Positions 249-20,034 of a stretch of 22,750 bases of DNA are shown here, piece after piece; the first letter of the stretch is position 1; each line of letters begins with the position of its first letter. The position numbers and the translations under genes are program-made. The notes under the pieces were generated by a model. The model saw nothing but the letters and a program-made list of their open reading frames with translations. It was not told the origin of the DNA and did not search any database. Origin of the DNA: a virus; the IMG/VR virus record IMGVR_UViG_3300027763_000248, positions 1 through 22,750 of that record. One strand, 5' to 3'.

Positions 249-320
249 AGTTTAGCAGTTATCACCGACAAAGTCAAGTTACGGCGTGTCGGCAAGGGGG
301 AACTGTGAAAAAATGAATAC
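249..320 (-). promoter_or_regulatory. 16-mer box plus sigma70-like promoter for the gene at 1-193
   Basis: The box GTATTCATTTTTTCAC (minus strand) is at 305-320. TTGACT lies at 272-277 and TAAACT at 249-254 with a 17 bp spacer. Fifty bases separate the box from the -10. Confidence 0.85.
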
Positions 321-348
321 GACTTCGCCCTGGTTAAAACTTTCGGGC

Positions 349-388
349 AAAAAATTAACCTGGAAGCCGTAGCCACCAGGTTAACTTT
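349..388 (-). terminator. Intrinsic terminator after the gene at 399-581
   Basis: On the minus strand TTAACCTGG pairs with CCAGGTTAA and is followed directly by TTTTTT. Confidence 0.85.
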
Positions 389-398
389 TACTTAAGTA

Positions 399-581
399 TT
401 AGCCGTGATTAGTCTCAAGTTCAGCAAGGGTGTCGTAATAAAACGCTCCATAGCCGTCAGGTGAGTAGGCGAACAGCACAGCACCATTAGGAAACCTTAC
501 CCTTACGGCTACGTCAGTAGGGCGTCTCTCGCCATCTTCCAAAGCGTCCCAAGTTTTTTCGCTCATAGTTCGTGTTTTCAT
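399..581 (-). CDS. Hypothetical 60-aa phage protein
   Basis: The product begins MKTRTMSEKTWDALEDGE and ends with an aromatic, Gly-rich segment (FAYSPDGYGAFYYD). The ATG at 581 is chosen because AAAAGGGACAAA lies just before it. A longer frame back to 656 would run through the leader hairpin and the -10 hexamer and is rejected. The leader carries a GTTGG-AAAA-TCCAAC-type hairpin at 597-611. It is a single-gene cassette with its own promoter (619-689) and terminator (349-388). No function is recognised. Confidence 0.75.
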   Translation of the reverse strand: MKTRTMSEKTWDALEDGERRPTDVAVRVRFPNGAVLFAYSPDGYGAFYYDTLAELETNHG

Positions 582-618
582 TTTGTCCCTTTTCCAGTTG
601 GATTTTCCAACTACTAGT

Positions 619-689
619 AGTTTAGCACAAAGTTCCGACAAACGCCAACATTTCATTTAACCCGTGTCTCATTGTGAAAAAATGAATAC
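619..689 (-). promoter_or_regulatory. 16-mer box plus promoter for the gene at 399-581
   Basis: The box is at 674-689 and the -10 TAAACT at 619-624, 49 bases away. The -35 is weak (TTGGCG or TGGCGT). An ACACGGG element follows the box. Confidence 0.8.
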
Positions 690-702
690 AACTCGTATCA
701 CC

Positions 703-742
703 AAAAACTAACCCCCGTCAATTTCTCAACGGGGGATTAGTT
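703..742 (-). terminator. Intrinsic terminator after the gene at 761-925
   Basis: A CCCCCGT/ACGGGGG stem, extended by CTAA/TTAG, is followed by TTTTT on the minus strand. Confidence 0.85.
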
Positions 743-760
743 CTAAGTTTGATTTACAAA

Positions 761-925
761 CTAGACATCTAGGACAACTGTTTCCAACATCACTTTGTCC
801 AAGTCGCCAATCAAAAACCACTCAACTAGTTCTTTGCCATTAGCCCAAGTGTATAGATTGACTATGCCTTTCTGGTGTAGCACAACTAGTTCTTTTGCTA
901 GCTGGATTAAATTTTCCTGTTTCAT
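761..925 (-). CDS. Hypothetical 54-aa phage protein
   Basis: A short ORF (begins MKQENLIQLAKELVVLHQKG) starts at ATG 925 and stops at TAG 761-763. AAAAAGGGTAAGT supplies a good ribosome-binding site four to five bases before the ATG. It sits exactly where a gene is expected, between a 16-mer promoter (974-1045) and an intrinsic terminator (703-742), and the leader has the recurrent GTTGG/CCAAC hairpin at 952-966. The N-terminal half looks amphipathic-helical. No family is recognised. Confidence 0.75.
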   Translation of the reverse strand: MKQENLIQLAKELVVLHQKGIVNLYTWANGKELVEWFLIGDLDKVMLETVVLDV

Positions 926-973
926 ACTTACCCTTTTTCTTGTTGTTTCTTGTTGGCATTTCCAACTACTATG

Positions 974-1045
974 ATTTTAGCACCCCCTAGTGACAAAAGT
1001 CAAATACCAACACGAACCCGTGTTCCGAGGTGAAAAAATGAATAC
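974..1045 (-). promoter_or_regulatory. 16-mer box plus promoter for the gene at 761-925
   Basis: The box is at 1030-1045, with ACACGGG after it, then TTGACT, an 18 bp spacer and TAAAAT at 974-979. The box to -10 distance is 50 bases. Confidence 0.85.
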
Positions 1046-1203
1046 AGCAGTCGTGCTGGTCAATCTCGTATCTGGCAGAGGCAAGGCAAGGGTAATACTC
1101 TAAATCGAGGCTGTAAGGCTCGTAGAAGGCTTAGGGGTCTAAAACAAGATGAACCATAATCCCCCTAATAAAACTCTCTCTACGGGGCTTACAGGGGCTT
1201 AAA
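1046..1203. other. Non-coding stretch between a terminator and the next box
   Basis: This is the longest gap between cassettes in the left third. It has no ORF with a convincing start. On the minus strand an AGGGGG-preceded ATG at 1157 opens only eight codons (MVHLVLDP) before TAA. The same frame then continues open for 47 codons but runs through the 16-mer, so it may be a decayed gene. Short repeats of AAGCCCC and CTTGCC are present. Confidence 0.4.
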
Positions 1204-1236
1204 CAAATAACCCCCCGTATCAACGGGGGGCTAATG
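1204..1236 (-). terminator. Intrinsic terminator after the gene at 1254-1613
   Basis: A CCCCCCGT/ACGGGGGG stem with a TGAT loop is followed by TTATTTGTTT on the minus strand. Confidence 0.85.
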
Positions 1237-1253
1237 TTTGCGGCAACTAGGGG

Positions 1254-1613
1254 TTAGTCGTCCCCGAGATACAGGGCGATAACATCTTTCGGGAACTCGT
1301 TAAACTCGTCCAGCAGATACTCCACGCCGTCTTTGGTCAGGTCGCACTCAAGATACAAGTTACAATCTTCGCAACTGGCAGGAGTATCACTCTCGTAGCA
1401 ATCAGGAGCATAGACCAAAGGCTCATACTCTTCATCTTCAGGGCGTGTAACTCCAGCAGGAGTTTCCATAGTGTCTGGCATAAATGGATAAGTGTTCCAC
1501 GCTAACTGGTGCTCTTCACCAAACTTGGTGGCACACTCTCGGCAGTATGTATGCCAACTCTCGTCAGTATGTTTGGCGAGATAGAGTGTTACTAGGTTTT
1601 TTTGTTCGGACAT
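1254..1613 (-). CDS. Hypothetical 119-aa acidic protein with CxxC pairs
   Basis: The protein (begins MSEQKNLVTLYLAKHTDE) contains YCREC near residue 24 and CEDCNLYLEC near residue 81, with a further Cys near 72. These could bind zinc, but no named zinc-finger family is recognised. It is strongly acidic and ends LYLGDD. The ATG at 1613 follows AAAGGGG by nine bases. A leader hairpin (GAACTTC/GAAGTTC) lies just upstream. It forms a single-gene cassette with promoter 1666-1736 and terminator 1204-1236. Confidence 0.8.
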   Translation of the reverse strand: MSEQKNLVTLYLAKHTDESWHTYCRECATKFGEEHQLAWNTYPFMPDTMETPAGVTRPEDEEYEPLVYAPDCYESDTPASCEDCNLYLECDLTKDGVEYLLDEFNEFPKDVIALYLGDD

Positions 1614-1665
1614 TAGCCGAACCCCTTTCAGTTTGGAACTTCCCCTTTAGAAGTTCTCTACTTGG

Positions 1666-1736
1666 AGTTTAGCACAGGGGCAGGACATTTCCAAATCGCC
1701 TACTAGTTCCCGTGTTAGCTGTGAAAAAATGAATAC
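1666..1736 (-). promoter_or_regulatory. 16-mer box plus promoter for the gene at 1254-1613
   Basis: The box is at 1721-1736 and TAAACT at 1666-1671, 49 bases apart. The -35 is weak (TTGGAA). AACACGGG follows the box. Confidence 0.8.
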
Positions 1737-1749
1737 GCTAAAACTTGAT

Positions 1750-1783
1750 AAAGAAAACTCCCCGCATTTCTACGGGGAATAAT
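1750..1783 (-). terminator. Intrinsic terminator after the gene at 1796-2068
   Basis: The stem CCCCG/CGGGG is followed by a TTTTCTTT tail on the minus strand. Confidence 0.75.
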
Positions 1784-1795
1784 CTTGACCTAACC

Positions 1796-2068
1796 CTAAA
1801 CAATTATGATGGCAGTTACATCATCAGCAAGAGAGAACTTCTTGTCGTGTTCAGTAATAGTCGGCAAAGTGTCAGTTGCTTCAGCAGAAGTAACTGGTGT
1901 CCATCTATAACCACAGCAGTCGCAGTCGCCATTGCCATCAAAGTAAAGACCATTAGCAACAGCAATGTTGTTTGCTGTATCAGCATCATCAGCAGTTGCT
2001 ACAAAGTAAAGAGATGGACCAGTGAAGTATCCACCAGAATTGTTCTGGCGAAAGATGAAGTAGGACAT
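1796..2068 (-). CDS. Conserved phage protein, FRQNNSGG...DCDCCGYRW type
   Basis: The N-terminus (MSYFIFRQNNSGGYF) and the central GLYFDGNGDCDCCGYRW segment match a pattern I associate with a widespread, uncharacterised phage protein family; this was not checked against a database. The Cys cluster (three Cys within five residues near position 50) may hold metal. The ATG at 2068 follows GAAAGGGG. That ribosome-binding site lies in the loop of an AATTTCC/GGAAATT hairpin that also covers the start, so translation may be structure-sensitive. Promoter 2118-2189 and terminator 1750-1783 make it a stand-alone cassette. Confidence 0.85.
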   Translation of the reverse strand: MSYFIFRQNNSGGYFTGPSLYFVATADDADTANNIAVANGLYFDGNGDCDCCGYRWTPVTSAEATDTLPTITEHDKKFSLADDVTAIIIV

Positions 2069-2117
2069 AATTTCCCCTTTCGGAAATTTGTAATTGGCGT
2101 TTCCAACTACTAATAGT

Positions 2118-2189
2118 AGTTTACCACATACTTCCAGAAATAGTCAAATCGGCACAGCTTCCCGTGTTTCTATGTGAAAAAATGAATAC
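2118..2189 (-). promoter_or_regulatory. 16-mer box plus promoter for the gene at 1796-2068
   Basis: The box is at 2174-2189, then AACACGGG, TTGACT, an 18 bp spacer and TAAACT at 2118-2123. The distance is 50 bases. Confidence 0.85.
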
Positions 2190-2202
2190 ACAAAATCTTC
2201 TA

Positions 2203-2240
2203 ACAAAAATCCCCCCTAACTTTTCATTAAGGGGGACTTC
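2203..2240 (-). terminator. Intrinsic terminator after the gene at 2251-2520
   Basis: The stem TCCCCCTTAA paired with TTAGGGGGGA is followed by TTTTTG on the minus strand. Confidence 0.8.
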
Positions 2241-2250
2241 GTGAAACCGC

Positions 2251-2520
2251 TTACAGCGTTAGCAGTTTGGCGGTAATCTCTGACCACACTCGCAAATAAA
2301 CTGCCAACTTAAATTCGGCTTCTTGCTTAAGTTTGGTAACTACAATCTCGCCAACTGGCGTAGATGTTTCATACTCTTTTTGAGTTTCTTTAAACGCTTG
2401 CTCAATGTGGCGACCAACTTGATTATCAACAAATAGCAGTTGTTCCCGTGTTGTTCTTTGTTCTAGGTTTAACTTGGTAATCAGGTGATTAGCAAGTGTT
2501 TCCACTTTCTTAGTATCCAC
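2251..2520 (-). CDS. Hypothetical 89-aa helical protein, GTG start
   Basis: The product reads MDTKKVETLANHLITKLNLE at its start and is rich in charged helical segments throughout, with no Cys. GTG at 2520 is preferred because AAAGGGG lies eight bases before it; an in-frame GTG at 2529 would directly abut the ribosome-binding site. Its promoter (2550-2621) has the only perfect TATAAT among the boxed units. No family is recognised. Confidence 0.75.
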   Translation of the reverse strand: MDTKKVETLANHLITKLNLEQRTTREQLLFVDNQVGRHIEQAFKETQKEYETSTPVGEIVVTKLKQEAEFKLAVYLRVWSEITAKLLTL

Positions 2521-2549
2521 TTTGGACACCCCTTTCTTGTTATGTCTTA

Positions 2550-2621
2550 ATTATACATCAACCCCCCGACATTTCGCAAAACATACACGACAGCGGTGTT
2601 AGGGTGTGAAAAAATGAATAC
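2550..2621 (-). promoter_or_regulatory. 16-mer box plus promoter with consensus -10
   Basis: The box is at 2606-2621 and TATAAT at 2550-2555, 50 bases apart. The -35 is TTGCGA with an 18 bp spacer. Confidence 0.85.
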
Positions 2622-2635
2622 TCTCTAACTTGCCA

Positions 2636-2664
2636 AGAAATCCCCGCCCTTTCGGGCGGGAACT
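2636..2664 (-). terminator. Intrinsic terminator after the gene at 2675-2944
   Basis: The stem CCCGCCC/GGGCGGG has a GAAA tetraloop and a GATTTC tail on the minus strand. Confidence 0.8.
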
Positions 2665-2674
2665 CTCGGTGAGA

Positions 2675-2944
2675 TTAGGACTTTCTAGCCCTTTGGATTG
2701 CTTCTAGAACTTTGGTAAGTTCGTTAATGTGTTCTTGGTGTAGAGCAATTGTGGTGTTCTCGGCAGTTCTAGCAATCTCTTCTTCTACTAGGCGTTCTAG
2801 TTTGATTAGCCCTAGAAAAGTAAATCCAGTCATAGAAATAGCAATCGTGTAATCGTTCTCTGCTGAGCCCGTGTAAGTGTAACCTTCTGCGAACTCGCCA
2901 GTTAGGACTAGTTCCCAGACTTTTTTCTTCTCTGTAGTTTCCAA
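2675..2944 (-). CDS. Hypothetical 89-aa protein, TTG start
   Basis: The frame starts at TTG 2944, seven bases after AAAGGGG; no ATG or GTG fits the ribosome-binding site. The sequence (METTEKKKVWELVLTGEFAE) has a predicted beta-rich front, then a helical, charged C-terminal half (HINELTKVLEAIQRARKS). The leader forms an extended hairpin in which GTAATC pairs with GATTAC and AGGC with GCCT. It is a single-gene cassette with promoter 2998-3069. Function unknown. Confidence 0.75.
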   Translation of the reverse strand: METTEKKKVWELVLTGEFAEGYTYTGSAENDYTIAISMTGFTFLGLIKLERLVEEEIARTAENTTIALHQEHINELTKVLEAIQRARKS

Positions 2945-2997
2945 TTGGAAACCCCTTTCTGTAATCTAGGCGACTTGCCTTTCTTGATTACATAGTA

Positions 2998-3069
2998 ATC
3001 CTACACCTTGCCACCGACAAAGTCAAATTAAGGGGGAGCTTCGGTGTTTCGGGGTGAAAAAATGAATAC
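2998..3069 (-). promoter_or_regulatory. 16-mer box plus promoter for the gene at 2675-2944
   Basis: The box is at 3054-3069, followed by AACACCG, then TTGACT, 17 bp and TAGGAT at 2998-3003. The distance is 50 bases. Confidence 0.85.
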
Positions 3070-3081
3070 ACAAAACTTCGG

Positions 3082-3121
3082 TAAAAACTTTCCCCCTATC
3101 AACTTCGGCAAGGGGAGAGTT
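3082..3121 (-). terminator. Intrinsic terminator after the gene at 3129-3698
   Basis: ACTCTCCCC pairs with GGGGAAAGT (one G-U) and TTTTTACC follows on the minus strand. Confidence 0.75.
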
Positions 3122-3128
3122 CGGGAGA

Positions 3129-3698
3129 TTACAATCCAAAGTTATTCAGGACATAATCCTTGTCCAACTCAAAGAACTCTTGGACAACTTCGGTGTAAGC
3201 GTAATCTTCATCTTGTATCCACTCTGTAAGCGTTGAGCCGTCATCTGCCGTATAGACTTTTGCTTGCTCAATGTGGACTAAATAGACTTCGCCCTTGTAG
3301 TAAGTGTCTATGCTCTTGATAAGGCTCTCTAAGTCGCCCTTGCTAAGACCCTTGCCATAGACAACAACTTCATTCCACTCGCCCTGTGAATAGCCCTTGA
3401 GTTCATAGAATAGGTGTGGAACGCCCTTGCTGTCTAGGTATTTGCCAATTTGTTTCTTGGTGTTAGCAAAGTCGCCTTGATAGACGCTGTCGCCAACTAT
3501 GGATTGGATACCATTAGAGAGTTCGGTGTCTGTGCCAAAGTGTGCCATACCTCTAGCAGATTGAATTGTGTCTAGGTTAACGCCTAACTCACTAGCGTAT
3601 TCATCAGTAGAACTATACTGCCCTGTGTGATACGCAACTGCCCTTGTGTTGCTGTCTATCTCAAAGATAGAACTTGGTGTTTCAGTTTGAGTTTCCAT
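3129..3698 (-). CDS. Conserved hypothetical phage protein, 189 aa
   Basis: The longest gene of the left cassette array (begins METQTETPSSIFEIDSNTRA). Its C-terminal half, with YSQGEWNEVVVYGKG followed by YYKGEVYLVHIEQAKVY, has the regular hydrophobic pattern of a folded alpha/beta domain. Acidity and size recall anti-restriction proteins of the ArdA type, but I see no diagnostic motif, so that is only a possibility. The ATG at 3698 follows GAAAGGGAAGT. The leader hairpin GTTAG/CTAAC (3711-3725) is a compensatory variant of the GTTGG/CCAAC hairpin in other leaders. Confidence 0.8.
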   Translation of the reverse strand: METQTETPSSIFEIDSNTRAVAYHTGQYSSTDEYASELGVNLDTIQSARGMAHFGTDTELSNGIQSIVGDSVYQGDFANTKKQIGKYLDSKGVPHLFYELKGYSQGEWNEVVVYGKGLSKGDLESLIKSIDTYYKGEVYLVHIEQAKVYTADDGSTLTEWIQDEDYAYTEVVQEFFELDKDYVLNNFGL

Positions 3699-3732
3699 AC
3701 TTCCCTTTCAGTTAGACTTTCTAACTACTTCC

Positions 3733-3804
3733 ACTTTACACCATAGAGCAGACATTACGCAACATCTCGCAATTCCCGTGTGTTGTCTGTGAAAAAATGA
3801 ATAC
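3733..3804 (-). promoter_or_regulatory. 16-mer box plus promoter for the gene at 3129-3698
   Basis: The box is at 3789-3804, followed by ACACACGGG, TTGCGT, 18 bp and TAAAGT at 3733-3738. The distance is 50 bases. Confidence 0.85.
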
Positions 3805-3824
3805 AAATCCAACCGAATCTGTTA

Positions 3825-3858
3825 CAAAAAATCCCCGTATCTCTACGGGGACTTTTGT
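3825..3858 (-). terminator. Intrinsic terminator after the gene at 3869-4261
   Basis: The stem TCCCCGTAGA/TACGGGGA is followed by TTTTTTG on the minus strand. Confidence 0.85.
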
Positions 3859-3868
3859 GGCGAAGCTT

Positions 3869-4261
3869 TTAATCTTCGTCTTCGTCTTCGTCTTCGTCTT
3901 CGTCTTCGTCTTCACACTCGCCATTACAACCAAACTCGTAACACTCTTCGCACTCGTCTTCGTCTGTTGCGAATTGTGGAATAAGGTCTGTAAATCCTGC
4001 GTTCGGGTCTTCGTGATTAGTTTCTACGCCCTGAATAAACTTAAGCGAGCAAGACTTAGAGAACCAATCTTTCAGCGTTTCCAACATCTCTGCTGGTGTC
4101 TGGTCTTCTGTTGTCCTAATCTCTTCGTATTCGTATTTACGCATTAGAGCAACTTGCTCGGTGTCCATAAGAACATAGATTTTGTGGCAGGTATCAAACG
4201 CAATACCCTTAGCGGTGTCTAGGCTGTCTTCTACAACGCCCCAATCAATTTTTACTTTCAT
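3869..4261 (-). CDS. Hypothetical 130-aa protein with Cys cluster and (ED)n tail
   Basis: The protein (begins MKVKIDWGVVEDSLDTAKG) has a folded N-terminal region and a C-terminal segment DECEECYEFGCNGEC followed by nine alternating Glu-Asp pairs. Four Cys in 13 residues suggest a small metal site. The tail is encoded by a six-base tandem repeat (GAAGAC units, 3872-3920) that could vary in length by slippage. ATG 4261 follows AAAAGGGAAGT. A longer frame to 4288 would overlap the leader hairpin (4275-4289). A DNA-mimic role is conceivable from the acidity, but is a guess. Confidence 0.8.
   Translation of the reverse strand: MKVKIDWGVVEDSLDTAKGIAFDTCHKIYVLMDTEQVALMRKYEYEEIRTTEDQTPAEMLETLKDWFSKSCSLKFIQGVETNHEDPNAGFTDLIPQFATDEDECEECYEFGCNGECEDEDEDEDEDEDED
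3870..3922 (-). repeat. Six-base tandem repeat coding (Glu-Asp)n
   Basis: GAAGAC-type hexamers (GTCTTC on the plus strand) repeat about eight to nine times almost without change at the 3' end of the gene at 3869-4261. The low complexity makes length change by slippage likely. Confidence 0.9.
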
Positions 4262-4296
4262 ACTTCCCTTTTCTGTTGGACTTTCCAACTACTCCA

Positions 4297-4367
4297 ATAA
4301 TACCAAAATACTATCTGGAATACAAATTAGGGTAAAGTTCGGTGTGTTTCTGTGAAAAAATGAATAC
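4297..4367 (-). promoter_or_regulatory. 16-mer box plus promoter for the gene at 3869-4261
   Basis: The box is at 4352-4367 and TATTAT at 4297-4302, 49 bases apart. The -35 is weak (TTGTAT, 17 bp spacer). Confidence 0.8.
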
Positions 4368-4385
4368 AACCCTTTCCCCCCTTAA

Positions 4386-4422
4386 TCCAAAGTTCCCCCC
4401 TGATTTCGCAGGGGGGACTTCG
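4386..4422 (-). terminator. Intrinsic terminator after the gene at 4433-4777
   Basis: AAGTCCCCCC pairs with GGGGGGAACTT. The T-run after it is weak (AACTTTGG). Confidence 0.65.
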
Positions 4423-4432
4423 GCAACCTGAT

Positions 4433-4847: not shown

Positions 4848-4919
4848 ATCTTACCACTATCTCCCCTGTAAAGTCAAATCACGCCACGCCAAGCCAAAAA
4901 TCTGTGAAAAAATGAATAC
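4848..4919 (-). promoter_or_regulatory. 16-mer box plus promoter for the gene at 4433-4777
   Basis: The box is at 4904-4919, then TTGACT, 18 bp and TAAGAT at 4848-4853, 50 bases from the box. A GATACTAGTATC palindrome overlaps the start of the leader. Confidence 0.85.
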
Positions 4920-5240: not shown

Positions 5241-5311
5241 ATCTTACCAGCAACCAGCGACATTACAAAATCTAACACGCCAAGCCGTATTCCCTGTGAA
5301 AAAATGAATAC
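5241..5311 (-). promoter_or_regulatory. 16-mer box plus promoter for the gene at 4977-5195
   Basis: The box is at 5296-5311 and TAAGAT at 5241-5246, 49 bases apart. The -35 is weak (TTTGTA). Confidence 0.8.
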
Positions 5312-5368: not shown

Positions 5369-5896
5369 TTATGCTCGCCAGAACTCTAAGTCTTGTGCCA
5401 GCAACCACTCTACGAAGTGTGGATTGAATAGAACCTTGTCGTGTCGCTTGGCTCGCATTAAGTCAATGGCGTCTTGTGCCGTATAGCCGTCAATCATTAG
5501 CACTAGGGTAAAGATTAGGCTAGACCTGTTTAGACCTGCTTGGCAACGCAAGAGAACTCTCTCGCCCCGTTTCCAATCAGCGTGAGCCATTAGAGCAATA
5601 CGCTTAAAAGCTTCCAAGTCAAAATCAGTTTCGCCACTATCAAAGTAACCGAACCTGAACTCTTTAACTAGCCAATCGGCAGGATTGGCGTGAGCATAAA
5701 AGGTATAGACACTATCAAAGTGTCGTATCTTGATAGAGATGTCCCGTCTATCAAACTCGCAATGCTTATCACCAACTCTGTCGTTGTCTGCCGTGCCACC
5801 TAGCCAAAGGTTAGGCAGGACTTCACTCCAAATAGGTATGTCCAACTGACCATTTAAAAACGGCTCGTTGCTGTATGACTTCTCGTAGTTGTTCAT
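5369..5896 (-). CDS. Dual-specificity/tyrosine phosphatase-like protein
   Basis: This 175-aa protein carries the Cys-phosphatase signature CQAGLNRSS: nucleophile Cys about 118 and Arg about 124 in the C-x5-R P-loop. The His usual before the Cys is replaced by Arg (LLRCQAG). Upstream, LPNLWLGGTADND resembles the start of the dual-specificity fold, and FGYFDSGETDFD could hold the general acid. The family hydrolyses phosphoserine, threonine or tyrosine; substrates here are unknown, perhaps host signalling proteins. ATG 5896 has GGAAAGGG. An in-frame ATG at 5911 is only six bases from the -10 and could start a leaderless form. Confidence 0.85.
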   Translation of the reverse strand: MNNYEKSYSNEPFLNGQLDIPIWSEVLPNLWLGGTADNDRVGDKHCEFDRRDISIKIRHFDSVYTFYAHANPADWLVKEFRFGYFDSGETDFDLEAFKRIALMAHADWKRGERVLLRCQAGLNRSSLIFTLVLMIDGYTAQDAIDLMRAKRHDKVLFNPHFVEWLLAQDLEFWRA

Positions 5897-5917: not shown

Positions 5918-5988
5918 AGTATCTCATTAATAGAACCTTAAGTCAAACTCATTTATTCCCAGCGTGTTTGGTGTGAAAAAATGAATAC
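5918..5988 (-). promoter_or_regulatory. 16-mer box plus promoter for the phosphatase gene
   Basis: The box is at 5973-5988, followed by AACACG, TTGACT, 17 bp and GATACT at 5918-5923. The distance is 49 bases. The leader is at most about 20 nt. Confidence 0.85.
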
Positions 5989-6545: not shown

Positions 6546-6617
6546 ATGGTATCACACTTCACACTAAAACTCAAACTAAGCCTAGTCGTGTCGTGTATGG
6601 TGTGAAAAAATGAATAC
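6546..6617 (-). promoter_or_regulatory. 16-mer box plus promoter for the genes at 6110-6499 and 6013-6117
   Basis: The box is at 6602-6617, followed by ACACGACACG, TTGAGT, 17 bp and TACCAT at 6546-6551. The distance is 50 bases. Confidence 0.8.
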
Positions 6618-6677: not shown

Positions 6678-6866
6678 CTATTCTTCTTCTTCTTCTTCTT
6701 CTACTTCTTCTTCTTCTTCTACTTCTATGCTCTCAACGCTTTCGTATTCCAAAACGGCATCTTCGCCATAATACGCTGACCACGCCTTTTCTTCTGCTTC
6801 TGCTTCACTATTCGCAACAATAATTCCCGAATAGTTAACTTGTATCTTCACTTCGTAGTTTGGCAC
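6678..6866 (-). CDS. Hypothetical 62-aa protein with poly-Glu tail, GTG start
   Basis: Starting at GTG 6866, the product runs MPNYEVKIQVNYSGIIVANS and then EAEAEEKAWSAYYGE, a beta-strand pair and helix pattern seen in many small phage proteins that end in acidic tails. The last 20 or so residues are almost all Glu. AAAAGGGATAAA precedes the GTG; the longer frame to 6908 would include the leader hairpin (6883-6897). Function unknown. Confidence 0.75.
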   Translation of the reverse strand: MPNYEVKIQVNYSGIIVANSEAEAEEKAWSAYYGEDAVLEYESVESIEVEEEEEVEEEEEEE

Positions 6867-6907: not shown

Positions 6908-6977
6908 ATTCTACCAGTTTTTAGCCAGATAGCAAATCAAGACCTCAACCAGCGTTTCTTTGTGAAAAAATGAATAC
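6908..6977 (-). promoter_or_regulatory. 16-mer box plus promoter for the gene at 6678-6866
   Basis: The box is at 6962-6977 and TAGAAT at 6908-6913, 48 bases apart. The -35 is TTGCTA with a 16 bp spacer. Confidence 0.8.
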
Positions 6978-7190: not shown

Positions 7191-7252
7191 ACTCTACCAG
7201 CAAGCACCGACAAAAGCAAGCACCGACACTCTACGGGTGAAAAAATGAATAC
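7191..7252 (-). promoter_or_regulatory. 16-mer box plus short-spaced promoter for the zinc-ribbon gene
   Basis: The box is at 7237-7252 and TAGAGT at 7191-7196, only 40 bases apart, one helical turn less than most others. The -35 is TTGCTT with a 17 bp spacer. Confidence 0.8.
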
Positions 7253-7761: not shown

Positions 7762-7833
7762 ACTTTACCACAGACCAGCCCTGAAAGCAAATCATCACGC
7801 CTGCCCGTGTGTGTCGTGTGAAAAAATGAATAC
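7762..7833 (-). promoter_or_regulatory. 16-mer box plus promoter for the gene at 7374-7721
   Basis: The box is at 7818-7833, followed by ACACACGGG, TTGCTT, 17 bp and TAAAGT at 7762-7767. The distance is 50 bases. Confidence 0.85.
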
Positions 7834-8402: not shown

Positions 8403-8472
8403 AACTTACCACTAATCCAAAGTTAATACAAACTTGCCACGCTACTATTTTCACAGGTGAAAAAATGAATAC
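8403..8472 (-). promoter_or_regulatory. 16-mer box plus promoter for the genes at 8117-8365 and 7888-8088
   Basis: The box is at 8457-8472 and TAAGTT at 8403-8408, 48 bases apart. The -35 is TTGTAT with a 17 bp spacer. Confidence 0.8.
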
Positions 8473-8753: not shown

Positions 8754-8823
8754 ATCTTAGCAGATACCACTGACATAATCAAGTTCCCACGCAGAGAAGT
8801 TTTCCAAGTGAAAAAATGAATAC
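8754..8823 (-). promoter_or_regulatory. 16-mer box plus promoter for the gene at 8550-8747
   Basis: The box is at 8808-8823 and TAAGAT at 8754-8759, 48 bases apart. The -35 is TTGATT with a 17 bp spacer. Confidence 0.8.
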
Positions 8824-9289: not shown

Positions 9290-9667
9290 CTACTCTGCGT
9301 CTTTCGCCATTACAGTTCGGGTAAAGGTGCTTTGACCCCACGATAAATCGTGTCCGAGTGTATCGGCTTCAAGTTCTACCGAAGTGCCAGCCCGTTCGCC
9401 ATTGTCCCAATCACGCACACGCAGACTACCCGATACAACTACTCGGTCGCCCTTGCTGATACTTGTTGCCGTGTTGATTGCCAACTGCTTAAAAGCCGTA
9501 ATGGTGAACCAATTTGTTTCGCCATCAACCCACTCACCCTTGCCGTTGTCCCAGCGTTTTACAGAACTCGCTAGGCGAAAAGATGTAATCGGCAAGCCGT
9601 CTTGCGTTACTATGTGTCGTGGTGTTGTTGCTACCAGACCTGTAATTGTTGTTGCTTGTTCTTTCAT
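9290..9667 (-). CDS. ssb: Single-stranded DNA-binding protein
   Basis: The 125-aa protein has the SSB OB-fold pattern: an N-terminal strand (ITGLVATTPRHIVT), a middle with TNWFTITAFKQLAINTATSI and the conserved KGDRVVVSGSLRVRDWDNGE segment, then VELEADTLGHDLSWG. It should coat ssDNA in phage replication and recombination. It stops soon after the OB fold and lacks the acidic DDIPF-like tip through which bacterial SSBs recruit partners. ATG 9667 follows GAAAGGGACAA. It is expressed from a boxed promoter (9715-9786), so replication is under the same control as the small cassettes. Confidence 0.92.
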   Translation of the reverse strand: MKEQATTITGLVATTPRHIVTQDGLPITSFRLASSVKRWDNGKGEWVDGETNWFTITAFKQLAINTATSISKGDRVVVSGSLRVRDWDNGERAGTSVELEADTLGHDLSWGQSTFTRTVMAKDAE

Positions 9668-9714: not shown

Positions 9715-9786
9715 ACTTTACACCAACGCTAATGAAAAGTCAAACTCACACGCCCAGAAGATTTTGTCGTGTGAAAAAATGAATAC
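9715..9786 (-). promoter_or_regulatory. 16-mer box plus promoter for ssb
   Basis: The box is at 9771-9786, then TTGACT, 17 bp and TAAAGT at 9715-9720, 50 bases from the box. The leader has a CAGAAC/GTTCTG hairpin. Confidence 0.85.
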
Positions 9787-10683: not shown

Positions 10684-10755
10684 ACTCTACCAGAACCAGC
10701 CCTGTAAAGCAAATCCATTTAGGAACAGGCGTGTTGCGTGTGAAAAAATGAATAC
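10684..10755 (-). promoter_or_regulatory. 16-mer box plus promoter, leaderless start
   Basis: The box is at 10740-10755, followed by AACACG, TTGCTT, 17 bp and TAGAGT at 10684-10689. The distance is 50 bases. Confidence 0.85.
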
Positions 10756-11220: not shown

Positions 11221-11292
11221 AACTTAGCATTAAGTATTTCCAAAGTCAAATCCATTTGGGAAATAGCGTGTCGTGGGTGAAAAAATGAATAC
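11221..11292 (-). promoter_or_regulatory. 16-mer box plus promoter, leaderless start
   Basis: The box is at 11277-11292, followed by CGACACG, TTGACT, 17 bp and TAAGTT at 11221-11226. The distance is 50 bases. Confidence 0.85.
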
Positions 11293-11366: not shown

Positions 11367-11600
11367 CTAGCGTTTCCACTCGTTCAGAGCAACCAGAAGT
11401 TCCTCTGGCTTGACTTTGAGAGCAAGGCAAACAGCAACCAGAGTATCTGCTGGCATTTGTCTTTGCTTGTGGAAGTATCTGCTAAGGCTGGACTTCTGGA
11501 AGCCCTGCTTGATAGCAAACTGATTTAGTGATTTGTATCCGAGTTCTTGGTAGCGTTCTACGAACCAATCCCAAGTGTCTATCTTTTTTGTCTTTGGCAC
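11367..11600 (-). CDS. XRE/Cro-type helix-turn-helix regulator
   Basis: The 77-aa protein is essentially one HTH domain: YKSLNQFAIKQGFQKSSLSR covers helices 1-3 and the recognition helix, followed by MPADTLVAVCLALKVKPEEL, the typical XRE helix 4-5 pattern. The GTG at 11600 is read from GGAG that overlaps the stop of the preceding gene (11603), so the two are translationally coupled. Target sites cannot be told from sequence. It is one of two HTH proteins here that could bind the 16-mer or other operators. Confidence 0.85.
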   Translation of the reverse strand: MPKTKKIDTWDWFVERYQELGYKSLNQFAIKQGFQKSSLSRYFHKQRQMPADTLVAVCLALKVKPEELLVALNEWKR

Positions 11601-12765: not shown

Positions 12766-13056
12766 CTACTTTGATACTACCATAGTGTCAAGATAGTTGT
12801 CAAGTATTCCCTCTGGCGTGTCTGGAAAAGTCCCGCCCATATTAAACGCTGTGAGGATTAGGATTTCAGGCAGGCTGATACCCAGAGCAATAGATAGTGC
12901 TTCAAGGATTTCTGACGAAGCTTCTTTTCTACCTCGTTCTATTTCAGATAGGTAGCCAAGTGCTACTCCTGCTTGCCCAGAAATGTCCCTAAGCGTTCTG
13001 TGTTTCTCTAAGCGTAACTCTTTTAGCGTGTCGCCCAATGCTGTTCTTAGTTTCAT
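12766..13056 (-). CDS. ClgR-like XRE-family transcriptional regulator
   Basis: This 96-aa protein has GDTLKELRLEKHRTLRDISG followed by GVALGYLSEIERGRKEASSE and ILEALSIALGI. The LGYLSE-ERGRKEASSE recognition-helix segment closely matches actinobacterial ClgR, which activates clp protease and stress genes in the host; the match is from memory. Phage ClgR homologues could redirect host proteolysis or phage promoters. Its ATG overlaps the stop of 13053-13508 (ATGA), so the two are coupled. The TTGACA of the next promoter lies in its 3' end. Confidence 0.88.
   Translation of the reverse strand: MKLRTALGDTLKELRLEKHRTLRDISGQAGVALGYLSEIERGRKEASSEILEALSIALGISLPEILILTAFNMGGTFPDTPEGILDNYLDTMVVSK
12774..12803 (-). 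promoter_or_regulatory. Box-less promoter for the three-gene run 12737-11867
   Basis: TTGACA (12798-12803), 18 bp, TAGTAT (12774-12779), within the last codons of the ClgR-like gene. A second TTGACA lies within the spacer. Confidence 0.75.
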
Positions 13057-13515: not shown

Positions 13516-13611
13516 AGCCTAGCATACGCCTATGACATTTCGCAACTCATTTCAGAACTTTTCATTACTAATCCAAAGTGTCCTTCACCTTCGCTGTGAA
13601 AAAATGAATAC
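13516..13611 (-). promoter_or_regulatory. 16-mer box with an unusually distant promoter
   Basis: The box is at 13596-13611, but the best promoter (TTGCGA 13540-13545, 18 bp, TAGGCT 13516-13521) is 74 bases from it, against 48-50 elsewhere. A CTAATCCAAAGTG motif sits between them. Confidence 0.65.
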
Positions 13612-15433: not shown

Positions 15434-15499
15434 ACTTTACACTAAGACTAATCAAAAGTCAAACTCATCTACGAGTGTGTTTAGTGAAAAAATGAATAC
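15434..15499 (-). promoter_or_regulatory. 16-mer box plus promoter, divergent site
   Basis: The box is at 15484-15499, then TTGACT, 17 bp and TAAAGT at 15434-15439. The distance is 44 bases, out of phase with most units. Confidence 0.75.
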
Positions 15500-15524: not shown

Positions 15525-15554
15525 TTGACAACTTTGTATTAGTTAGTGTAAAGT
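15525..15554 (+). promoter_or_regulatory. Divergent plus-strand promoter
   Basis: TTGACA (15525-15530), 18 bp, TAAAGT (15549-15554) point rightward, 49 bases beyond the shared 16-mer. No plus-strand gene follows; a symmetrical hairpin at 15617-15655 could end a transcript of about 100 nt. Confidence 0.6.
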
Positions 15555-15559
15555 TCGCA

Positions 15560-15660
15560 CACTCATCAGCATCTACTGGAACTCATCTACATTTGAAGCT
15601 CGCCAGATAGACGAAACCCCCTGATAGGAAATGGGAATAAACTATCAGAGGGTTTCTAAT
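15560..15660 (+). ncRNA. Possible short divergent RNA
   Basis: From the promoter at 15525-15554 a transcript would begin near 15561 and meet the GAAACCCCCTGATAG/CTATCAGAGGGTTTC hairpin at 15617-15655. No start codon with a ribosome-binding site lies between. The RNA is inferred from promoter and hairpin only. Confidence 0.3.
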
Positions 15661-15725
15661 CCGTCAGGGAGAACCTGCTGTGAAAGGGGACAACAAAAAC
15701 AGCGTTGCTCAATCCCTGACGGACT
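15613..15725 (-). terminator. Two hairpins after the VWA gene
   Basis: On the minus strand TCCGTCAGGGA/TCCCTGACGGA with an inner GCTGT/ACAGC comes first, then GAAACCCTCTGATAG/CTATCAGGGGGTTTC. The inner loop of the first has CCCCTTTC. T-runs are weak, so termination may be bidirectional for converging transcripts. Confidence 0.7.
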
Positions 15726-15739
15726 TCTTGTGGAACTAG

Positions 15740-17602
15740 TTAGGCATTACGCTTGCCGACCTGTTCCAATGCTTTCGCACACGCCGAACCAATCAGCGTT
15801 GCTATGTCCTTGCCAGCAGTTCCGTCAATCAAAACTGCTTCGGAGTTCTCGGCAACAATGTCGTAAGCACCATTACTCCCAATCTTGTCAGGTGAAATCC
15901 ACATCACAGCCACGCCGTTACGCTGGCACTCTTTCATAACTTCTTTTGCTCTCTTGCTTTCGCCACCTGTGTAATGTCCGTCAGAAACGATTACGAGCAA
16001 TCTCGCACCACGCCCATAAAGTAAATCAAGCGAGCCATTTAGAGCAGACCAGCCCTCACCAAACTTTTCAGTTCCGTCTGGTGCTGTATAGACCTTGACC
16101 TCTGGAAGTCGCTGACCGACTTTGAGAGTTGGGAATACGCCAGAGCCATAATAGACCATAGCAGTTTTCGCCTGAACCCTGCGACCTGCTTCAGCGAGAA
16201 CCCACGCTGTCGTTGCGAGAGGGTTCATAGCGTTCCCCATAGAGCCAGATACATCTACCATTACACCAACAGACAGAGTTGGCTCGTCTGTGTATTTGCG
16301 TGTCTTGTGTTCCCACGCTTCAACTTGGGTCTTGATACCCTTGCTCTCTAACGCTTTGCCCTGAACCAAAGTTCTAGTGCGAAGTCTGCCAGCAGGAACT
16401 ACACCTGTCTTGGTAACGACATCTCTCTCACGATACTTTGCTCGTTCCAACATCTGTGATACACGAACGCTTGCTATGCGTTCCTCGCTGGTAGGCTGAC
16501 GAGTTTCAATCAGCGTAGAGGAACTACCTGTTTCGCCACCACCAGACGAACGAGAGAAAATCTTATTAGCAATCTCTTTGTCCTTGTTCTGCTGTTCTGA
16601 CTTCTTACTCTTTTCTGAAGCCTGTTCCTTACTTTCCTCTTGGTCTTGCTGGTCAGCCAAATCGTCATTAGTAGCCAGAGCAGTATCGTCAGCAGAGTTC
16701 TCAACAGCTTCAATCAGGTCAGAGATAATCTTGCCAATCATCTCTTTCATCTCGTCAGACATTTCAGAGCCAGCACCAGAACCCTCGCCCTCGCCCTCGC
16801 CCTCGCCCTGCTCTGGCTCTTGACCCTGCTCTACTGCTTTGTCCTTGACAAGTTGTGTCCAGAGTTTAGCAAGTTCCACTCCACGAACGAAGTGTGCTGG
16901 GTTGTGGTGAGATAGAGTTTGGAACTCTGTCCAAATCTCACGAAGTTTGTCTAGCAAGTCGTAGCCAAGAACTTCTGAAACCTTGTCCTCAATCAGATAG
17001 ACATCATCAGGTTCTAATACGCCACCTGTAACTCTCGCAAGTGCCAGCCCTGCTAGTTGGCTCGCAACTGCGACAGCAGACATCTCACCAATCTTTTCGT
17101 TGATGTCGCCAAGTGAAAGTTTGAGAGCAGACGAACGCAAGAACAATCTGTTCTTAGGCATAAGGCTCGCACCCAACGCTTCAATGCGACTTTCCTCTAA
17201 CAGATAGAAGTTGTCGTATTCACGCTTAGTTAGTTCCTTAGCCTTAAACAGTTCGTCAAAGCGTGAGTGTTCCCAACCAGAGTATCTAGCGTGTAGTGCT
17301 TCGTGATAGATAACACCAATGGCTTCTGGAAACTCGTATTGGTTTTTTCTTAGCTTCAAATCGCCAACCATTTCAGGCGTGGTAACTTCACCAAAAGCGT
17401 TAGGTAGGCTTACCTCAATCTCTGCTGTGTCAGGAATAAAGCAAGCAATCGCTTCACCCATACCTGCGTCTTTGCCACCATACACAACGAGGTCAGAACG
17501 CCCTGCCCACTCGTTAGCGATTTGTCCAATAGTCGCACAAGTTGATAGCCACGCTTTCGGAGTTTCACTAGTGCGTGTTGCTAGTCTTGATAAATGTCCC
17601 AT
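15740..17602 (-). CDS. Metallopeptidase-like/VWA-domain protein, 620 aa
   Basis: The N-terminal domain has HEALH (about 100-104) and a downstream LLEESRIEA (about 134-142), the ligand pattern of a gluzincin-type zinc peptidase. A low-complexity Glu/Gly, Gln and Lys linker spans roughly 265-360. The C-terminal domain is von Willebrand factor A: DVSGSMG at about 450-456 gives the MIDAS Asp-x-Ser-x-Ser, with IVSDGHYTGG near 539 supplying the later Asp. Such proteins pair with MoxR AAA+ ATPases as metal-dependent adaptors or chaperone partners, and the ATPase gene is immediately upstream. ATG 17602 follows AAAGGAAAACAA. It is the largest gene in the window. Confidence 0.9.
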   Translation of the reverse strand: MGHLSRLATRTSETPKAWLSTCATIGQIANEWAGRSDLVVYGGKDAGMGEAIACFIPDTAEIEVSLPNAFGEVTTPEMVGDLKLRKNQYEFPEAIGVIYHEALHARYSGWEHSRFDELFKAKELTKREYDNFYLLEESRIEALGASLMPKNRLFLRSSALKLSLGDINEKIGEMSAVAVASQLAGLALARVTGGVLEPDDVYLIEDKVSEVLGYDLLDKLREIWTEFQTLSHHNPAHFVRGVELAKLWTQLVKDKAVEQGQEPEQGEGEGEGEGSGAGSEMSDEMKEMIGKIISDLIEAVENSADDTALATNDDLADQQDQEESKEQASEKSKKSEQQNKDKEIANKIFSRSSGGGETGSSSTLIETRQPTSEERIASVRVSQMLERAKYRERDVVTKTGVVPAGRLRTRTLVQGKALESKGIKTQVEAWEHKTRKYTDEPTLSVGVMVDVSGSMGNAMNPLATTAWVLAEAGRRVQAKTAMVYYGSGVFPTLKVGQRLPEVKVYTAPDGTEKFGEGWSALNGSLDLLYGRGARLLVIVSDGHYTGGESKRAKEVMKECQRNGVAVMWISPDKIGSNGAYDIVAENSEAVLIDGTAGKDIATLIGSACAKALEQVGKRNA

Positions 17603-17637
17603 TTGTTTTCCTTTGTTTGTTGTTTCGTTCTACTGCG

Positions 17638-17666
17638 AGTTTAGCAGTTTTGGTTGGGAGTGTCAA
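17638..17666 (-). promoter_or_regulatory. Box-less promoter for the VWA gene
   Basis: TTGACA (17661-17666), 17 bp, TAAACT (17638-17643). The -35 lies inside a 12 bp inverted-repeat arm (17656-17667 with 17684-17695). Confidence 0.8.
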
Positions 17667-17720
17667 GTCCATTTCGCAACTTTCTTGACACTCCCTTTTA
17701 GCAGGAACGGAACTGCTAAA
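17640..17720. repeat. Nested inverted repeats over the VWA promoter
   Basis: An inner pair GGGAGTGTCAAG (17656-17667)/CTTGACACTCCC (17684-17695) is perfect over 12 bases, and an outer pair TTTAGCAGTT (17640-17649)/AACTGCTAAA (17711-17720) over 10. They cover both promoter hexamers and the end of the MoxR gene. No T-run follows, so an operator or attenuating hairpin is as likely as a terminator. Confidence 0.8.
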
Positions 17721-18723
17721 TCTTGGCTGACCTGACTTCCTCACCAAACACTCTGGTAAAGACATCAGCGACAACTGACCTGTCGTTTTCAGGCGAGCAA
17801 GCGATTAGGTTGGAAACTGCCCAAGCAGTTCCAAAGGTGCTGGCTACATCTCGGAACGCTAGGAGTTCTCGCATTTGAGGCGACCAACTGATTTCCCCTG
17901 ATTGCTGTTTCTTGGATAGGTTCTGGCTTGCTGTAACTGCTGGAACAGGAACGCCCAACTTCTTAGCCAAAGACCAATCAGTAGTCATTTCAGCCTGAAT
18001 AGAAAAGCGTGAAAGCAAAGCTTCAGATAGACGAACTCCAACAGCGTTAGGGTTGGTCGCACCAACGACATAGAAACCTGACTTGGCTTTAACAGTTCCT
18101 CGTTCTGGGTTCTGTGTGATTGTGATTTCATCTCGTCCGTCCATTAGACCATAGACAAGTGAAAGCACCTTTGGGTCAATCAGACCAATCTCGTCAATCA
18201 GCAGAACCTTACCCTGCTCAACTGCTCTAACCAAAGGTCCGTCAATCCACTCAAAGCCACCTGACGGAGTTTGGACATAGCCACCAACGAAGTCAGCGAC
18301 TTCTGTATCGCCTGTTCCAATGATAGTTTCCAACTCGTCTGGGAACGCACCCTCAACGAGTGCTGTCTTACCAGTTCCTGGACTTCCATAGAGCAGGATA
18401 AACTGACTTAGAGTTCTGGCTTTACGCAGAACCTCAATGTCAGAGTGAGTTCCCCAAGTGCGAGAATAGTAATCCTGACCATTTGGTCGTGGGTATTTAG
18501 TTTCACCAACTAGGCTATCTACACTCACAGGTGGTTTCTCTTTCGGGGTTGATTTGTTGTCGCCTTTTGCTCGCAAAGTTGCCCTTGCTTCTGCTGGCAT
18601 TAATGATACTAGACCAGCAGGAACTCCACTTGGGTCTAGGTTCTGAATAGCAACTCCATAGATAAGACTTGATAGGTCTGGGTAGAGAGTGTCTATTTGT
18701 TCGGTGATAGGTGATGTAGTCAT
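17716..18723 (-). CDS. MoxR-family AAA+ ATPase
   Basis: The 335-aa protein has Walker A GSPGTGKT (113-120), Walker B LLIDEIG (174-180), a sensor-1 like GATNPN (221-226) and an Arg-finger region EALLSRF near 239, all typical of MoxR/CobS-type AAA+ ATPases. These ATP-driven machines remodel or metallate partner proteins together with VWA proteins, one of which is encoded next. The first 70 residues form an extra N-terminal region. ATG 18723 follows GGAAAATCTAAA. The start MTTSPITEQ resembles that of the upstream gene (MTTTAITEN). Confidence 0.92.
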   Translation of the reverse strand: MTTSPITEQIDTLYPDLSSLIYGVAIQNLDPSGVPAGLVSLMPAEARATLRAKGDNKSTPKEKPPVSVDSLVGETKYPRPNGQDYYSRTWGTHSDIEVLRKARTLSQFILLYGSPGTGKTALVEGAFPDELETIIGTGDTEVADFVGGYVQTPSGGFEWIDGPLVRAVEQGKVLLIDEIGLIDPKVLSLVYGLMDGRDEITITQNPERGTVKAKSGFYVVGATNPNAVGVRLSEALLSRFSIQAEMTTDWSLAKKLGVPVPAVTASQNLSKKQQSGEISWSPQMRELLAFRDVASTFGTAWAVSNLIACSPENDRSVVADVFTRVFGEEVRSAKI

Positions 18724-18758
18724 TTTAGATTTTCCGTTCTGTTAGTTTGACTATTTTG

Positions 18759-18787
18759 ATTATACTAGTTTTTCGGGGAAAGCACAA
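18759..18787 (-). promoter_or_regulatory. Box-less promoter for the MoxR gene
   Basis: TTGTGC (18782-18787), 17 bp, TATAAT (18759-18764), inside the 3' end of the gene at 18760-19251. This is the only box-less promoter here with a non-TTGACA -35. Confidence 0.7.
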
Positions 18788-19251
18788 GCAACTCTGGCTT
18801 TTTGTAATCTACGCATTAGAGCCTGTGGTGTTGTGTATTTACTAATCTCGTTAAGGTCTATTGCTGAAACCTCAACTACGATTGGTCTGTTGCGAACTAC
18901 GAACTTGTATGATACCTGCTTTGCGAGTGAAGCTTCAAAGCGAGCAACCATTTTCACAGCGAGTTCCTGTGCTAGTGGCGAACTCATACCTACTCCTGTA
19001 AGAACTCTGCTGTCAAAGACCTCTTTGTTATTTACATCAGAGAAGTTGATACGCCACTGCTTTCGTGGCGAACTAGGTGAGATAGTGCGTGAGTGTAGAG
19101 CCATACCAACAAAGTTGCCTGTGTGGTCGTATGCTTCTGGCGTGATAAGGATTTGGGTAATCCTGCTATCAGCAGAGGTATCAGTAGGAACTAACTCTAA
19201 GTAGAGAGCCTTACCAATAACGCTGTTCTCTGTTATTGCTGTTGTTGTCAT
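18760..19251 (-). CDS. Hypothetical 163-aa protein next to MoxR
   Basis: The product begins MTTTAITENSVIGKALYLEL and is a strand-rich protein with a helical end (TTPQALMRRLQKARVACAFP). The RNRPIVVEVSAIDLNEIS segment looks like a core strand pair. It uses the same ribosome-binding style (ACGGAAAACGAA) as the MoxR gene and lies directly before it, so a role in the MoxR-VWA system is likely by context only. No family is recognised. Confidence 0.8.
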   Translation of the reverse strand: MTTTAITENSVIGKALYLELVPTDTSADSRITQILITPEAYDHTGNFVGMALHSRTISPSSPRKQWRINFSDVNNKEVFDSRVLTGVGMSSPLAQELAVKMVARFEASLAKQVSYKFVVRNRPIVVEVSAIDLNEISKYTTPQALMRRLQKARVACAFPEKLV

Positions 19252-19291
19252 TTCGTTTTCCGTTCGTTTGATGTTTTGTTATTACTTAGTC

Positions 19292-19320
19292 ATTAAAGCA
19301 TTAAACTTTTCATTTGTCAA
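19292..19320 (-). promoter_or_regulatory. Box-less promoter for the gene at 18760-19251
   Basis: TTGACA (19315-19320), 17 bp, TTTAAT (19292-19297). The -35 lies just after the stop of the gene at 19323-19916. Confidence 0.75.
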
Positions 19321-19322
19321 GT

Positions 19323-19916
19323 TTAGTGATTAAGTTTTTTTAGCGTGTCGTTTATCAACTCGTAGGCGAGTATTCGTCTTTCCTCTGCGAAGTCCTTAAT
19401 AGCCTGCTGATTGTTCTCTATCCAGTTGCGAATAGTTCCTGTCTGGTCTAGGTAGATAGGGTCGCCAATGTCGTAGGTATTAAGACTAGGTGCGTAGCCT
19501 GTTTCTGCGAACTTCTCTACTATCAAAATGTCGCCAATCTGTATTCCATTTGCGAACGAAGCTAAGGTTATGCGTATAAATCCCCACCTCTGCTTTTCGT
19601 GTAGGTTTTTCTTGTATCTGTAATAAGTCTCACCAACGCTACTGTCCCACTCTTTATACCTAGATAGTTCCTCTTTGGTATAGTCCCTGAAATGCTTAGC
19701 GTGAGTTGGGTCTTTCGGGTCTGGACACTCGTTCCACAGATACTCAATACCAATCCAAACCTCTATGCCCTCAATGATACCTAGCGAGTGTTCCTCGTTT
19801 AGCACAGAGTATTTGCGTTGGGTATAGCGAGTAGGGAAATCGTTAAACTCCATAGAAGTTAACTCAAAGTCGCCAACCTCTATTGGAGTTGGCTTTGGTG
19901 TCTTAATTCGTTTCAT
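19323..19916 (-). CDS. Hypothetical 197-aa protein, leaderless
   Basis: The protein (MKRIKTPKPTPIEVGDFELT) has many Tyr and Trp residues and a charged helical C-terminus (QQAIKDFAEERRILAYELIN). I see no known catalytic motif. ATG 19916 lies seven bases after TAAGTT (19924-19929), so it is probably leaderless. It heads the leftward series that runs into the MoxR-VWA genes. A 16-mer in the opposite orientation lies 42 bases upstream of its -10. Confidence 0.8.
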   Translation of the reverse strand: MKRIKTPKPTPIEVGDFELTSMEFNDFPTRYTQRKYSVLNEEHSLGIIEGIEVWIGIEYLWNECPDPKDPTHAKHFRDYTKEELSRYKEWDSSVGETYYRYKKNLHEKQRWGFIRITLASFANGIQIGDILIVEKFAETGYAPSLNTYDIGDPIYLDQTGTIRNWIENNQQAIKDFAEERRILAYELINDTLKKLNH

Positions 19917-19923
19917 ACCAGAG

Positions 19924-19953
19924 AACTTAGCACAGGTTCTCGGAACTTGTCAA
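19924..19953 (-). promoter_or_regulatory. Promoter for the gene at 19323-19916
   Basis: TTGACA (19948-19953), 18 bp, TAAGTT (19924-19929). The nearby 16-mer (19972-19987) is inverted relative to it. Confidence 0.75.
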
Positions 19954-19971
19954 GCGTGTCGCAAAAATCCT

Positions 19972-20034
19972 GTATTCATTTTTTCACAAGGATTTCTAAA
20001 TGTTGTTGCTTTTTGGCAACCTGTGTGATACACT
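19972..20034 (+). promoter_or_regulatory. The only plus-oriented 16-mer box, with plus-strand promoter
   Basis: GTATTCATTTTTTCAC reads on the plus strand at 19972-19987, followed by TTGCTT (20006-20011), 17 bp and TACACT (20029-20034), 41 bases from the box. A transcript would start near 20041 and run antisense to the gene at 20098-20385. AAGGAG (20042-20047) and a 28-codon ORF from ATG 20065 exist but are poorly spaced. A GATGGCT/AGCCGTC hairpin at 20064-20081 may stop it. Confidence 0.6.

Follow-up and report, generated by a model that had tools for sequence, protein, structure and literature searches.

Phage-specific 16-bp boxes upstream of small-gene units: a probable activating site that also marks gene-order junctions

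The window and its boxed units

The window, by which we mean the whole 22,750-bp stretch of DNA that was analysed, is a fragment of an IMG/VR record of an uncultivated caudovirus. Because its MoxR-like ATPase and endolysin are respectively 73.7% and 38.7% identical to those of Actinomycetia phage DSL-LC01, protein similarity places the virus as kin to that phage and to the large Microbacterium phages. Megablast of the window against deposited phages returned no match, and neither an Rfam family nor a tRNA was found within it. The 16-mer GTATTCATTTTTTCAC, hereafter the box, is present in 24 exact copies, 23 on the minus strand and one on the plus strand; all of the starts and strands listed in the first-pass annotation proved correct. 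Spacings in the following list are nucleotides from the T6 run of the box to the predicted -10 hexamer.

305..320, minus: box 1; predicted -10 TAAACT 249-254, spacing 54
674..689, minus: box 2; predicted -10 TAAACT 619-624, spacing 53
1030..1045, minus: box 3; predicted -10 TAAAAT 974-979, spacing 54
1721..1736, minus: box 4; predicted -10 TAAACT 1666-1671, spacing 53
2174..2189, minus: box 5; predicted -10 TAAACT 2118-2123, spacing 54
2606..2621, minus: box 6; predicted -10 TATAAT 2550-2555, spacing 54
3054..3069, minus: box 7; predicted -10 TAGGAT 2998-3003, spacing 54
3789..3804, minus: box 8; predicted -10 TAAAGT 3733-3738, spacing 54
4352..4367, minus: box 9; predicted -10 TATTAT 4297-4302, spacing 53
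4904..4919, minus: box 10; predicted -10 TAAGAT 4848-4853, spacing 54
5296..5311, minus: box 11; predicted -10 TAAGAT 5241-5246, spacing 53
5369-5896, minus: boxed gene with a dual-specificity phosphatase domain (DSPc, E 4e-9); orthologue in contig L061
5973..5988, minus: box 12, upstream of the 5369-5896 gene; predicted -10 GATACT 5918-5923, spacing 53
6602..6617, minus: box 13; predicted -10 TACCAT 6546-6551, spacing 54
6962..6977, minus: box 14; predicted -10 TAGAAT 6908-6913, spacing 52
7237..7252, minus: box 15; predicted -10 TAGAGT 7191-7196, spacing 44, one helical turn nearer
7818..7833, minus: box 16; predicted -10 TAAAGT 7762-7767, spacing 54
8457..8472, minus: box 17; predicted -10 TAAGTT 8403-8408, spacing 52
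8808..8823, minus: box 18; predicted -10 TAAGAT 8754-8759, spacing 52
9290..9667, minus: boxed SSB gene, whose orthologues in other phages bear those phages' own boxes
9771..9786, minus: box 19, upstream of the SSB gene; predicted -10 TAAAGT 9715-9720, spacing 54
10740..10755, minus: box 20; predicted -10 TAGAGT 10684-10689, spacing 54
11277..11292, minus: box 21; predicted -10 TAAGTT 11221-11226, spacing 54
13596..13611, minus: box 22; predicted -10 TAGGCT 13516-13521, spacing 78, out of phase
15484..15499, minus: box 23; predicted -10 TAAAGT 15434-15439, spacing 48, out of phase
15740-17602, minus: VWA/CoxE-like gene, paired with the MoxR-like ATPase in block 15740..18723
17716-18723, minus: MoxR-like AAA ATPase, in the syntenic block adjoining the array; served to find relatives
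19972..19987, plus: box 24, the sole plus copy, between divergent predicted promoters
20029-20034, plus, and 19924-19929, minus: predicted -10 hexamers flanking box 24, TACACT and TAAGTT respectively

The conservation of the box is all-or-none, because no copies with one or two mismatches occur in the window and the single site with three (574, plus strand) is chance-like, 0.41 sites being expected at up to three mismatches. The reversed pattern, used as a control, gave 0 matches in the window. Information content is at its maximum over these 16 positions exactly and is back at background 1-2 bases beyond either edge. The first-pass annotation had asked whether the box might be common host sequence; the composite of box and ACACG has 11 matches in the window against 4 isolated ones, scattered over unrelated bacteria, in the genomes of ~85,000 prokaryote species, and is not a host feature.

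Units follow one order: the terminator-like hairpin of the previous gene, a short spacer, the box, ACACG, a TTGACT-like -35, a TAAACT-like -10, the gene and the next hairpin. A sigma-70-type promoter-like hexamer pair follows all 24 window boxes (scores 10.3-21.3), and a terminator-like hairpin with a T-run lies within 80 nt upstream of 19 of them (2 in shuffled sequences). Over 11 phages such a hairpin precedes 197 of 268 boxes (39 in shuffles) and ACACG occurs within 40 nt downstream of 128 (9 expected), its position being broad and mostly ~35-53 nt upstream of the predicted -10. Measured against the predicted promoters, the box is ~25 bp upstream of the -35 and ~50 bp upstream of the -10; the start codon is usually ~75-130 bp away. 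In the longer relatives the array occupies a single island that adjoins the lysis/MoxR block, precedes the terminase and is outside the structural genes.

Several further features were seen within the array. The product of the 5369-5896 gene is, from its predicted domain, a possible effector on host signalling, and the products of two other boxed small genes (3869-4261 and 6678-6866, both minus) end in long Glu/Asp runs. Beside box 23 there is a second strong promoter-like site, with plus-strand hexamers at 15525-15554 facing the antisense strand of the VWA gene, from which an antisense or divergent transcript is possible.

Box versions in related phages

Relatives were gathered through the MoxR-like ATPase and SSB. 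The search for the 16-mer in related phages that had been proposed at first pass located exact GTATTCATTTTTTCAC more than once in three other contigs only, other relatives having versions of their own. L061 contains 13 exact copies and one with a final G; L019 contains 5, its matching boxed stretches being identical to those of the window; the third, G001, is a 73.8-kb contig. Within positions 38386-55410 of G001 (loci L193-L194) the first base of the box is G early in the array and C in a block at its end, all eight copies from 51171 on being contiguous and of the C type, as if this block came from a phage with another box version.

Arrays of this kind, with 10-43 copies each, are present in no fewer than nine relatives, most of which have their own near-invariant box:

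G004: GTATTTATTTTTTCTG, 38 copies
G005: GTATTTATTTTTTCT, 10 copies
G006: TTATGTATTTTTTCCT, 13 copies
G007: GTATTCATTTTTTATC, 21 copies
G008: ATTTTTCATTTTTAC, 26 copies
G022 and G024: GTATTCGTTTTTTCC, 41 and 43 copies
G023: GGTATTTATTTTTTCTG, 15 copies

A T5-T6 run is present in every version. The non-T positions (GTATTC, GTATTT, GTATTCG, TTATGT) are invariant inside a phage and different from phage to phage. In 12 gene families, each represented in at least 3 box phages, every gene bears the box of its own phage: the box version tracks the phage, not the gene. Nor does it simply follow the tree of the MoxR-like ATPase, in which six box phages fall in one 13-row clade (support 99/89) that also takes in some box-less relatives; the neighbours G005 and G007 have different boxes, and those of G004 and G005 are alike. 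The box is absent from some close relatives (G010, G011 and G013), so the lineage can do without it.

Repeats of other kinds occur elsewhere among the relatives. L168/G009 was rejected as a box phage, as it lies outside the MoxR clade and its repeat is of another type, a few copies of which are located at the start codon itself. Other relatives have T-rich or palindromic repeats that are likewise a different element; in L146, L133 and L140, from another branch, TTTTTCCATGC is repeated, often in inverted pairs with GCATGGAAAAA. Six relatives (L184, which is DSL-LC01, L113, L117, L122, L123 and L131) have no T-rich box and instead carry phage-specific motifs that end in a -10-like TATAAT, for example CTAAAG..GTTATAAT, TTCCAGAGTTTATATAAT and ACCTGATATAATTA, in ~10-30 copies; these are perhaps promoters of a phage-modified polymerase. 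In the more distant L256/L258, L257 and L254 the conserved upstream elements are longer and A-rich, and their distance from the predicted -10 is nearly fixed: 59-61 nt in L256 (all 16), 73-77 in most cases in L257, and 40-43 nt in all 12 scored in L254.

No cognate DNA-binding protein for the box was found among the genes of the partial contigs. A ClgR-like HTH_3 protein (12766-13056, minus), a possible mimic of the host's Clp protease gene regulator, was rejected: it occurs throughout the clade, box or no box, and has strongly diverged between the window and L061 despite their identical box. Also rejected were an HTH_26 protein (11367-11600), present in the window, L061 and G022 only; WhiB proteins, found in only 4 of the 8 contigs searched; and a weak Sigma70_r4-like match that adjoins the terminase, recurs in box-less relatives and is probably the terminase small subunit. 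Genes common to the box phages and absent from four box-less relatives comprise two small coiled-coil-looking families and one 177-aa family, with no recognised DNA-binding domain, and a comparison of box distance with protein distance across the other shared genes yielded no clear candidate and no convincing correlation. Because the contigs are partial, the gene for the factor may lie outside them; a factor from the host is also possible.

Helical spacing between box and predicted promoter

Promoters were predicted with a -35/-10 model learned by expectation maximisation, with no position term, from 143 boxes of seven phages. In these learning phages the best promoter was mostly 44-46, 53-56 or 62-66 nt from the T6 run. 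G022, G023 and G024 were left out of the learning and used as a test set, and their box-to-(-10) distances cluster at 53-54, 63-66, 72-76 and 85. The best period in this set was 10.9 bp, and at 10.5 bp the resultant was 0.645 (n=68; Rayleigh p ~5e-13, on box counts that are not fully independent since the units may have common ancestry); with jitter of up to 5.25 bp, 0 of 2000 control sets was as periodic. Pooling ten phages (n=184) gave a period of 10.6 bp, with modes at ~44, 54, 64, 75 and 85 bp that put the box centre at ~-61, -71, -81 and -92, taking the predicted -10 to start at -12. These data show that the box is helically phased with respect to the predicted promoters.

The window itself is dominated by one of these modes, with 20 of its 24 boxes at 52-54 nt. 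Two boxes (7237 and 19972) are one turn closer, at 44-45, and two (15484 at 48 and 13596 at 78) are out of phase. The range of about -65 to -85 originally given for the box is thereby tightened, the 16-mer extending from ~-78 to -63 at the main spacing. In the 25 nt that follow the box, units have unrelated sequence (mean identity 0.31), and the fixed spacing is therefore not simply copied sequence.

This arrangement resembles that of class I activators. CRP acts at class I sites centred at -61.5, -71.5 and -82.5, with a dependence of ~10.5 bp (PMC6301791). The box sites, measured against predicted start sites, lie upstream of the -35 at ~-61, -71 and -82 and show the same periodicity, but the box differs in being asymmetric and invariant. 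Its orientation seems to be preferred and not strict. Thirteen boxes in G022/G024 have the opposite orientation to the nearest good promoter, at distances similar to those of the other boxes and with phasing that is not significant, and on their account the reversed orientation looks tolerated; box 24 of the window is at ~-62 from promoter-like sequence on each side. Such tolerance looks unusual for a directional activator and, like the two out-of-phase boxes of the window, counts against an activating role.

Gene-order changes, alternative readings and significance

The closest divergent relative of the window is L061, ~77-88% identical across the longer aligned segments, and the homologous BLAST segments of this pair repeatedly run from the first base of one box through to the final base of the following box. 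A junction was scored where the left flank of an L061 box matched one window box and the right flank another. By this measure, seven of the 14 L061 boxes are same-to-same, six are clear junctions (6932, 7757, 8376, 9939, 10488 and 11165) and one (7422) is uncertain; all six clear gene-order changes in this phage pair thus fall at a box. As no sequence other than the box is shared by all of the gaps, short-homology recombination within the box would be the simplest reading, the alignment ends not fixing the exact crossover.

We favour, with a probability of about 0.68, the reading that the box is a phage-specific upstream activating site, used from one face of the helix and serving 10-43 small units per phage, which is also a point of shuffling. 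A phage-encoded activator would bind the asymmetric box at about -71 (alternatively at about -61, -81 or -92) and would contact host RNA polymerase, probably through the C-terminal domain of the alpha subunit. It would thereby switch on, with shared timing, an array of ~20-40 units of small non-structural genes, mostly one gene to a unit, each unit being built as box, promoter, gene and terminator. The box would have a second role as the short stretch of common homology where units are acquired, lost or put in a new order.

Three other readings, recombination only, repression and a purely architectural role, are less likely than an activating site. The best of them, though improbable, is that the box is a cassette-exchange boundary with no part in transcription, either short perfect homology or a recombinase site, whose identity is maintained by recombination. 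The six clear junctions among 14 boxes and the box-delimited BLAST segments are as this predicts, and all-or-none conservation is stricter than that of most factor sites. However, it does not predict helical phasing to the -10 in several discrete modes, nor that the box is kept upstream of the promoter and not elsewhere in the gap. Moreover, in two cases where genes are related across box versions the coding sequence is shared, with largely unrelated upstream DNA and the box of the recipient phage. Exchange had been proposed at first pass as an alternative to regulation; gene-order changes do fall at boxes, and the two readings are supported at once.

A little less probable again is a repressor or road-block site, asymmetric and bound by a monomeric immunity repressor in the manner of stoperators. 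The stoperators of Cluster A mycobacteriophages are short asymmetric sites, more than 20 per genome, with one main orientation and a lineage-specific version, and they bind repressor in operators and in short intergenic spaces of transcribed regions (PMC9283540, PMC6550527). The box is similar in length, asymmetry, number, predominant orientation and phage-specific version, and DSL-LC01 is termed lysogenic by its authors (PMC10611076). Its location is different: the box occupies the gap that separates a terminator-like hairpin from the promoter, ~25 bp upstream of the -35, and is neither over the promoter nor inside transcription units. Boxes are also phased with the promoter over several turns and occur in reversed copies. 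In addition, no gene of the window was identified as encoding a repressor, and a search of species genomes with short exact peptides found no MoxR-type relative. Least probable of all is an architectural element, such as the intrinsic bend of an A6 tract or a nucleoid protein of the host, phased with the promoter. In its favour, curved upstream DNA does act helix-dependently and the T5-T6 run is present in every box version; against it, bending alone would not need non-T positions that are fixed within each phage and differ between phages. This invariance is better explained by sequence-specific recognition. An activator or architectural-protein site had been suggested first, and the phasing backs a transcription-factor site.

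With respect to shuffling, the nearest evolutionary analogue appears to be the PeSLs of T4-like phages, summarised as a motif of promoter and stem-loop terminator between small genes that permits modular shuffling (PMC4503421, citing Arbiol 2010, Comeau 2014). Boxed units likewise have a modelled sigma-70-type promoter and a terminator-like stem-loop between small genes, and gene order changes at the box at six clear junctions in one phage pair. By comparison with that summary, in which the early promoter is the shared motif and the hosts of the motif are T4-like, the relatives of the virus studied here are actinobacteriophages, and the junctions are marked by an extra invariant 16-bp box that is neither promoter nor hairpin, is phage-specific and is phased. 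Highly conserved short repeats are also known from Cluster K mycobacteriophages (SAS/ESAS) and from intergenic regions of Microbacterium phage clusters EC, EF, EG and EI, at the start codon or ~14-30 bp from it (PMC3203893, PMC7302621). These resemble the box in occupying small intergenic gaps of actinobacteriophages, but the box is not in the ribosome-binding-site position beside the start codon. The box is distinct from both stoperators and SAS. We know of no system described in the open-access literature that combines an invariant asymmetric box, a phage-specific version, helical phasing and junctions at the box.

The box arrays suggest a private gene-switch system with 10-43 matching sites per virus. 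More tentatively, at somewhat below an even chance, a clade of actinobacteriophages may possess private activator-box systems in which the regulator and its 10-43 sites change specificity together and the box is the recombination point; small-gene units would be traded at the box, and incoming genes would therefore come under the recipient's regulator. With several versions, 10-43 near-identical sites per phage and a measurable spacing rule, the arrays would offer a natural case of a regulator and its set of sites changing in concert, and the question of how a single factor and its dozens of sites come to change specificity jointly becomes directly testable. They link regulation with gene shuffling in phage accessory regions and, because nearly every unit begins at a box, supply a rule for finding and delimiting small, mostly unknown and probably host-directed phage genes.
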